Shown here: one piece after another, positions 43,494 to 43,732 of the stretch
Numbering within the stretch: position 1 is the stretch's first letter
Layout: each line of letters starts with the position of its first letter
Origin: an uncultured Flavobacteriaceae bacterium
GTDB lineage: Bacteria > Bacteroidota > Bacteroidia > Flavobacteriales > Flavobacteriaceae
NCBI GenBank assembly: GCA_947500385.1
Contig: CANMSA010000004.1
Location: forward strand, 248,001 to 312,000
Length of the DNA: 64,000 nt
Direction: 5' to 3'
Notes under the pieces: generated by a model
What the model was told of the DNA's origin: nothing
Database searches by the model: none
Seen by the model: the letters and a program-made list of their open reading frames with translations, nothing else
Translations under genes and position numbers: made by a program

Positions 43494-43564
43494 TCGCTTG
43501 TTCGTTTTGAAATTACTTAATGTCTTTTTACAATCAAGAACATCTCAAAAAATGTAAAACAAAA

Positions 43565-43587
43565 AAGTCCCGCTTTTTGCGGGACTT
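43565..43587 (-). terminator. attenuator terminator of the phe/tyr operon
   Basis: On the minus strand GAAGTCCCGC, AAAAA loop, GCGGGACTT, then TTTTTT. The stem has nine perfect pairs and lies between the leader peptide stop codon and pheA, 72 bases before the pheA start, so readthrough is needed for pheA expression. Confidence 0.9.
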
Positions 43588-43651
43588 CAATATCATATCA
43601 ATTTTCAATATACTATGACAGCCCCGTTTCACTTCTAAAAAAGAAGTAAAA
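43580..43651 (-). promoter_or_regulatory. attenuator competing hairpins (1:2 and 2:3)
   Basis: Minus-strand TTTTACTTCT (43642-43651, within Phe/Tyr codons) pairs with AGAAGTGAAA (43627-43636) over ten pairs including one G-U. The next seven bases, CGGGGCT (43620-43626), pair with AGTCCCG of the terminator's first arm (43580-43586), six Watson-Crick pairs and one G-U. A ribosome stalled on Phe/Tyr codons would melt the first hairpin and favour the second, preventing termination. Confidence 0.7.
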
Positions 43652-43684
43652 GTAAAAACCGTTATAGAAATATTGTTTGATCAT
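43613..43684 (-). CDS. phenylalanine/tyrosine operon leader peptide
   Basis: A 23-codon open frame (ATG to TAG) too short for ordinary gene calling. Of its residues six are Phe and four Tyr, concentrated in FYFYFFF (residues 10-16); the peptide starts MIKQYFYNG and ends RSETGLS. It lies ten bases or so after the predicted transcription start, ahead of competing hairpins and an intrinsic terminator, and upstream of the Phe/Tyr biosynthetic genes. This is the organisation of enterobacterial pheL-type attenuators, arrived at here in a Bacteroidota genome. Role: ribosome position on it senses charged Phe- and Tyr-tRNA. Confidence 0.85.
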   Translation of the reverse strand: MIKQYFYNGFYFYFFFRSETGLS

Positions 43685-43702
43685 TGTACACTTAAACTTT
43701 GG

Positions 43703-43732
43703 CTAAAGTAACAATTAAATTCAATAATCAAA
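43703..43732 (-). promoter_or_regulatory. promoter of the phe/tyr operon
   Basis: Minus-strand TTTG (43729-43732), 18 bases, TACTTTAG (43703-43710). The -7 element differs from TAnnTTTG at one position. Transcription would begin about 12-15 bases before the leader peptide ATG. Confidence 0.6.

Follow-up and report, generated by a model that had tools for sequence, protein, structure and literature searches.

A probable Phe/Tyr leader-peptide attenuator ahead of the pheA operon in Flavobacteriaceae and other Bacteroidia

The operon headed by pheA in an uncultured Flavobacteriaceae bacterium is very probably controlled by a ribosome-mediated transcription attenuator that senses charged tRNA-Phe and charged tRNA-Tyr together. 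The element lies upstream of pheA on the minus strand of the window, which here means the whole stretch of 64,000 nucleotides that was analysed. Its parts are present in the expected order and conserved in relatives, their pairing arms change together, and the position of a run of Phe and Tyr codons matches the computed footprint of a ribosome. From these observations we infer use of the promoter, translation of the leader, coupling and a response to Phe or Tyr. The initial annotation, made from the letters of this stretch alone, had read the region as a pheL-like attenuator for an operon making both Phe and Tyr, and this reading is supported by the comparative tests presented here.

The proposed gene content of the operon was borne out by family matches. 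All four genes are on the minus strand: pheA, encoding prephenate dehydratase (PF00800; 42666..43493), a class I/II aminotransferase gene (PF00155; 41524..42669), tyrA, encoding prephenate dehydrogenase (PF02153, and over the cut-off of NCBIfam NF006307; 40640..41497), and a gene for DAHP synthase fused to chorismate mutase (DAHP synthase/CM; PF00793 and PF01817; 39442..40524). The amino acids that would be sensed are the products of this operon.

Read towards pheA on the minus strand, the sequence first shows promoter-like elements (43703..43732), TTTG at 43732-43729 and, after an 18-nt spacer, TACTTTAG at 43710-43703, for which the promoter consensus of Bacteroidota served as comparison. The leader peptide frame (43613..43684), an open reading frame kept in relatives, has 23 codons plus TAG and encodes MIKQYFYNGFYFYFFFRSETGLS, with six Phe (codons 6, 10, 12, 14, 15 and 16) and four Tyr (codons 5, 7, 11 and 13). 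Residues 10-16 are Phe or Tyr throughout, and these seven consecutive codons (43637..43657) are the putative regulatory codons. In the minimum free energy (MFE) fold, hairpin 1:2 (43606..43675; core arms 43662-43642 and 43636-43618, base out to 43675/43606) spans the Phe/Tyr codons and the heptamer CGGGGCT, and the terminator comes next. This heptamer (43620..43626), segment 2 and the predicted 5′ arm of an antiterminator, lies close to the end of the leader frame, with the TAG stop at 43615-43613 four bases past it. It is complementary to 43586-43580, that is to segment 3, AGTCCCG (43580..43586), which is common to antiterminator and terminator. A terminator scan placed the intrinsic terminator stem-loop at 43564..43588, with six of its 10 pairs G-C and a run of T6 reaching to 43561. 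The observation is confirmed in that all named parts lie where the initial annotation had put them: the promoter elements with their 18-base spacer, the 23-codon frame with its Phe and Tyr codons, the hairpin built from these codons and, at 43626-43620, the heptamer able to pair with the first arm of the terminator. For the terminator, the location and T6 held, and the nine pairs counted originally are 10 in the scan.

Such an arrangement is not expected by chance. The predicted fold of the 143-nt leader (43700-43558) has an energy of -43.3 kcal/mol, where shuffles average -22.6 (z -6.4) and none of 200 is as good, and an ATG frame with eight Phe/Tyr per 10 codons never arose when the 250 nt upstream of pheA were shuffled 2000 times. 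A 15-mer of the FYFYF type is not rare alone: it matches the genome at seven places, fewer than the 10 of the reversed control, and the other six of these places have no terminator within 120 nt past the frame. The unusual thing is the combination of parts, not the codon pattern.

In the proposed mechanism, transcription would start just upstream of the 23-codon leader frame. When Phe or Tyr is short, a ribosome would wait within codons 10-16 and cover segment 1, leaving CGGGGCT (segment 2) to pair with AGTCCCG (segment 3); the terminator would then be blocked, and pheA, the aminotransferase gene, tyrA and the DAHP synthase/CM gene would be transcribed. When Phe and Tyr are both plentiful, the ribosome would reach the stop codon and cover segment 2, and the 3:4 hairpin would terminate transcription. 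If the ribosome were absent, 1:2 and 3:4 would form and transcription would stop as well.

The position of the codon run was compared with a model in which a ribosome is placed at each codon, 11 nt past the A-site codon are taken as covered and the RNA left free is folded as far as segment 3 extends. For the leader in the window, a ribosome at codons 10-15 leaves the antiterminator available (-16 kcal/mol); the value is slightly weaker at codon 16 (-14.2 kcal/mol), and the antiterminator is lost from codon 17 (-4.0 kcal/mol). Among 64 distinct leaders from the relatives described below, the end of the Phe/Tyr run is the last permissive codon in 53, one codon before it in 10 and four before it in one. 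The seven-codon stretch is Phe/Tyr at 406 of its 448 codons, against 180 of 1035 codons elsewhere in these leaders. The agreement withstands a change of the assumed footprint, and with values of 8-15 nt the offset is between -1 and +2 codons for 52-53 of the 54 distinct peptides. The distance from the end of segment 2 to the stop is 4 or 5 nt in most leaders and 8 or 10 in others, and in six leaders segment 2 reaches or passes the stop. In the computation segment 2 is left free by a stall in the run and hidden by a ribosome at the stop, as an attenuator demands, and the model predicts that a ribosome at the stop would cover or abut segment 2 in each leader.

The same folding model also indicates how the choice between the two structures would have to be made. 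With the full terminator present, 3:4 is always favoured at equilibrium in the window (P at least 0.96), and antitermination would therefore have to be kinetic. In RNA that ends with segment 3 the model permits 2:3 even with the ribosome at codon 1, from which it follows that the untranslated state depends on 1:2 forming first; 1:2 stands at -25.9 kcal/mol in slightly longer RNA, against -25.2 kcal/mol.

Relatives were collected as 75 loci, 30 from one search, which yielded loci from 30 of 45 places and none from the other 15 (G040 among them), and 45 from another; removal of three duplicates left 72 distinct pheA loci. A locus was called positive when it held a terminator, a segment complementary to its first arm and a frame with at least five Phe/Tyr per 10 codons. 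The full set, with segment 2 complementary to segment 3, is present at 68 of the 72 loci, a count in which related rows are not independent, and a Saprospiraceae record (L073) is among the positives. The four loci without it are L023, L025, L075 (Clostridium) and L048, whose contig starts within the leader and retains the leader tail. After removal of four duplicates the positives comprise 64 distinct leaders, and every one of these has at least two Phe and at least two Tyr codons. The initial annotation had made its reading depend on conservation of the Phe/Tyr run and the terminator in relatives, and both are conserved, in these 68 loci as well as in the class sample described below.

The conservation extends to the putative promoter and to individual codons. 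In 61 of the 64 leaders the motif TAnnTTWG lies between 9 and 50 nt ahead of the start ATG, where shuffles would give 6.7, and it stands at -26 in 40 of them; an upstream TTG with a spacer of 17-22 is found in only 31. Of the 42 leaders that have 23 codons, 39, selected by a loose Phe/Tyr pattern at the positions concerned, show TTT/TTC and TAT/TAC swaps at codons 10-13, and at codons 14-16 no codon change is seen across the 39. A Trp codon is present in 39 of the 64 leaders. It stands at codon 7, just before the run, in 25 of the 39 group-I leaders (e.g. L042 and L050), and inside the run, as YFWFY, in L113, L127 and L226. Since DAHP synthase serves all three aromatics, the Trp codon is a possible third input. 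One member of the family, L106, has two matches to Flavo-1 RNA (RF01705) near the pheA region, at 2704-2781 and 91-166.

The leader peptide is rich in aromatic residues and much alike within Flavobacteriaceae, as it might be if the nascent chain itself arrested the ribosome, as in TnaC, and sensed free aromatic amino acids, not charged tRNA. An arrest peptide would be expected to fix the places of its residues; across the class, however, the run differs in order, spacing and length (FYFYFFF, FFFYFYN, YYFFFFY, YFWFY) while its Phe/Tyr content stays constant. Variation of the Phe/Tyr order between lineages with constant content fits codon starvation. Furthermore, in the known cases of arrest an abundant amino acid leads to induction, which would be the wrong sign for a biosynthetic operon. 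We therefore consider nascent-chain arrest very unlikely here, and codon-dependent stalling at Phe and Tyr remains the preferred reading.

The pairing arms change together between relatives. Matched arm sets among the 64 leaders are CGGGACT/AGTCCCG/CGGGACT, CGGAACT/AGTTCCG/CGGAACT, CGAGAC/GTCTCG/CGAGAC, AGGACT/AGTCCT/AGGACT, ATCGGGA/TCCCGAT/ATCGGGA, GGACC/GGTCC/GGACC and others, and one core position is G-C in 11 and A-T in 11 of 22 distinct arm sets. Segment 2 and the antiterminator helices were chosen in each sequence for pairing, so these sets lean toward pairing and broken pairs are invisible in them. In alignment A1, made with MAFFT from 55 of the 64 leaders, the terminator is paired in 99.5% of cells and shows double changes in seven of eight pairs, which none of 500 shuffles matched; consensus folding of A1 returned the terminator only. 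On the raw alignment the antiterminator 2:3 is weak: 76.9% of its cells pair, a value that 20 of 500 shuffles reach, the reason being that one clade sits one base, and hence one column, out of register. In a test free of columns, where the 2:3 pairing of a leader's own arms was compared with that obtained with the arms of another species, own arms were better in 2533 cases, worse in 549 and equal in 490. Against shuffles of single sequences the signal for 2:3 is modest, with p up to 0.05 in 40 of 64 leaders and up to 0.01 in 11. The arms at the base of hairpin 1:2 also vary together between lineages (CAATAT:ATATTG, ACGTA:TACGT, ATTATACATAT:GTATGTATAAT), with own arms better than foreign arms in 2807 comparisons, worse in 771 and equal in 396, and this base is significant in only 25 of 64 single sequences. 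Covariation of the pairing segments, which had been named at the outset as a check, is thus evident in the matched sets, in the comparison of own with foreign arms and in the terminator on A1. Antiterminator and terminator are mutually exclusive, share a common arm and change jointly, the column test of the antiterminator being the weak element.

A fixed terminator could also end a separate gene for a small RNA or small protein, with pheA served by its own promoter downstream. Some room for such a promoter is given by the distance from terminator to pheA, which is 70 nt in the window and 9 to 104 nt among the 64 leaders. The end of the terminator stem nevertheless lies within 26 nt of the pheA match in 37 of the 64 and within 12 nt in 10, leaving no room for a second promoter in the latter, where pheA is presumably reached by read-through, as judged from the spacing. 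Against a separate gene speak also that segment 2 has kept its complementarity to the terminator arm and that in three genomes the element precedes a DAHP synthase gene instead of pheA (see below). We regard such a gene as highly improbable.

The distribution of the attenuator beyond close relatives was surveyed in a class sample of 119 Bacteroidia genomes, of which 33 have a match to the window PheA, 32 besides the source genome; the search for leaders reached no further than 420 nt before pheA. A leader and terminator precede pheA in 24 of the 32 other genomes (22 of a first 29 and two of three further), with four weak cases among the 22: L113, L115 and L127 need Trp in the count to reach the threshold of five, and L128 has its terminator far from the frame. 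The antiterminator limit lies within two codons of the run end in 21 of these 22 leaders. Under the loosest rule, five Phe/Tyr/Trp in 420 nt, 22 of 29 real regions and 192 of 2900 shuffles qualify, and at least seven Phe/Tyr per 10 codons are found in 17 of 29 real regions against 7 of 2900 shuffles of equal length. It is scarcely credible that T-rich sequence was selected for folding alone, bringing the Phe/Tyr codons with it as a side effect, and that a protein or ligand runs the switch: the run does lie within hairpin 1:2 and codons 14-16 are unchanged in 39 leaders, but such runs are rare in shuffles, codons 10-13 undergo synonymous swaps, the run position tracks the footprint limit across leaders of different lengths, and in the 20 loci searched the leader gave no Rfam match at gathering score. 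A search with PF00800 in a largely overlapping sample matched 31 of 109 genomes, one of which (G453) was new relative to the PheA search; its leader has five Phe/Tyr/Trp and a terminator that is unlisted by the finder but plain in the sequence. In a phylum sample of 30 loci, the best 30 of 258 genomes with PF00800 and comprising 29 loci from other classes and one from the order, none had at least five Phe/Tyr per 10 codons.

The presence of the leader goes along with that of the DAHP synthase/CM gene. Of the 24 loci with a leader, 23 have this gene downstream within the stretch read, the contig of L113 ending first, and it was not found downstream in the eight loci without a leader (Fisher p 5e-6 for the first 29 loci, ignoring kinship). 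All eight genomes with a leaderless pheA have a DAHP synthase/CM gene elsewhere, and in three of them (G134, G168 and G369) a Phe/Tyr leader and terminator precede that gene. In G134 and G168 it is located upstream of pheA on the same strand, and the gene directly before pheA is one that we take to be aroA; G168 has a second DAHP synthase/CM gene, without a leader. The DAHP synthase/CM loci that have such a leader and terminator, and that lie upstream of pheA or apart from it, are L233, L235 and L234. In five genomes, four of them from one family, a leader was found at neither pheA nor the DAHP synthase/CM gene. With L113 counted, the leader precedes the unit holding the DAHP synthase gene in 27 of 32 genomes. 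Less expected than the attenuator itself, the leader seems to follow the DAHP synthase gene through operon rearrangements, in few independent lineages. Our judgement is evenly balanced on a broader reading, in which an ancestral Bacteroidia attenuator of the entry to the aromatic pathway reads Phe and Tyr at once, and in many lineages perhaps Trp, with its codon in or beside the run. On that reading the attenuator would be tied to the DAHP synthase/CM gene and not to pheA, would precede the unit of that gene after rearrangement, and would be missing in some lineages with the gene outside the pheA operon.

Two further leaders are present in the source genome. A His leader, MRTINVHHHFYHCAQAR, followed by a terminator (GACCCG..CGGGTT) stands before hisG (L152, G000:C28), and a Trp leader, MNNLNINTWWWYNSRNKS, also followed by a terminator, stands before trpE (L153, G000:C4:47500-50500) and scores 48 bits to Rfam Bacteroid-trp, for which the cut-off is 49. 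To judge by these leaders and their terminators, leader-peptide attenuation looks to be used more than once in this genome. The ilvD and homoserine dehydrogenase genes of the same genome have no clear leader.

Leaders that read more than one amino acid are known from enterobacterial ilvGMEDA and thr, and the leader in the window resembles them in this respect while differing in the amino acids read. Enterobacterial pheL is not known to have Tyr codons, whereas Tyr and Phe alternate here, and the operon in the window, unlike pheA of enterobacteria, also makes Tyr and holds DAHP synthase. The enterobacterial pheL/pheA leader (Rfam RF01859, Phe_leader) is alike in having a leader with a Phe run, the hairpins 1:2, 2:3 and 3:4, a terminator and pheA downstream; it matches weakly in the window, at 31.3 bits, under its gathering score of 55. 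Bacteroid-trp (RF01692), which is listed in PMC2864571, is likewise a leader-peptide attenuator of Bacteroidota but has a Trp leader, and it is absent among the 12 matches listed (E up to 5) around the pheA leader.

Attenuation ahead of this kind of operon has been indicated before. In Bacteroides thetaiotaomicron, of the same phylum, a putative attenuator was tabulated in 2005 ahead of an operon of the same kind, pheA > hisHb > aroAIbeta-aroQ > tyrA (PMC1173090, Table 7), where the passages concerned name neither a leader peptide nor what is sensed. For Flavobacterium psychrophilum, strong clues for leader-peptide attenuation of amino-acid operons were reported in 2021, together with a structured 5′ element before pheA that is conserved in Flavobacteriaceae and has no Rfam match (PMC9723704); the section on the pheA element names neither a leader peptide nor Phe/Tyr codons. 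By its position and conservation, that element is very probably the same as the one described here. In PMC6429828, shikimate genes are shown with two preceding uORFs that contain Phe and Tyr and are alike in being leader frames with both amino acids; the passages concerned state no host. In 2010, leader peptides were said to have been shown only in Proteobacteria and Actinobacteria, apart from the authors' own case in Firmicutes and the atypical ermC leader (PMC2965389). The initial annotation knew of no attenuator in Bacteroidota sensing both aromatic amino acids. In the open-licence literature searched nothing was recognised as describing dual Phe/Tyr sensing in Bacteroidota. The statement needs qualifying in view of the putative attenuator before the same operon (PMC1173090), the 5′ element before pheA (PMC9723704) and the Trp leader of Bacteroidota (RF01692).

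The kind of switch is long known; what the present analysis adds is the dual Phe/Tyr anatomy, the extent of its spread and the link to DAHP synthase. The finding belongs to an ordinary kind, has good support and reaches further than the first reading. At the level of sequence it provides evidence for leader-peptide attenuation of the aromatic pathway in a class outside the Proteobacteria, and there in many genomes. As far as is known, Bacteroidota hardly use Shine-Dalgarno sites, and if the attenuator operates as proposed, ribosomes in these bacteria would follow RNA polymerase closely enough for such control. The element would constitute a simple sensor that serves two end products through a single leader, and is a candidate for annotation.
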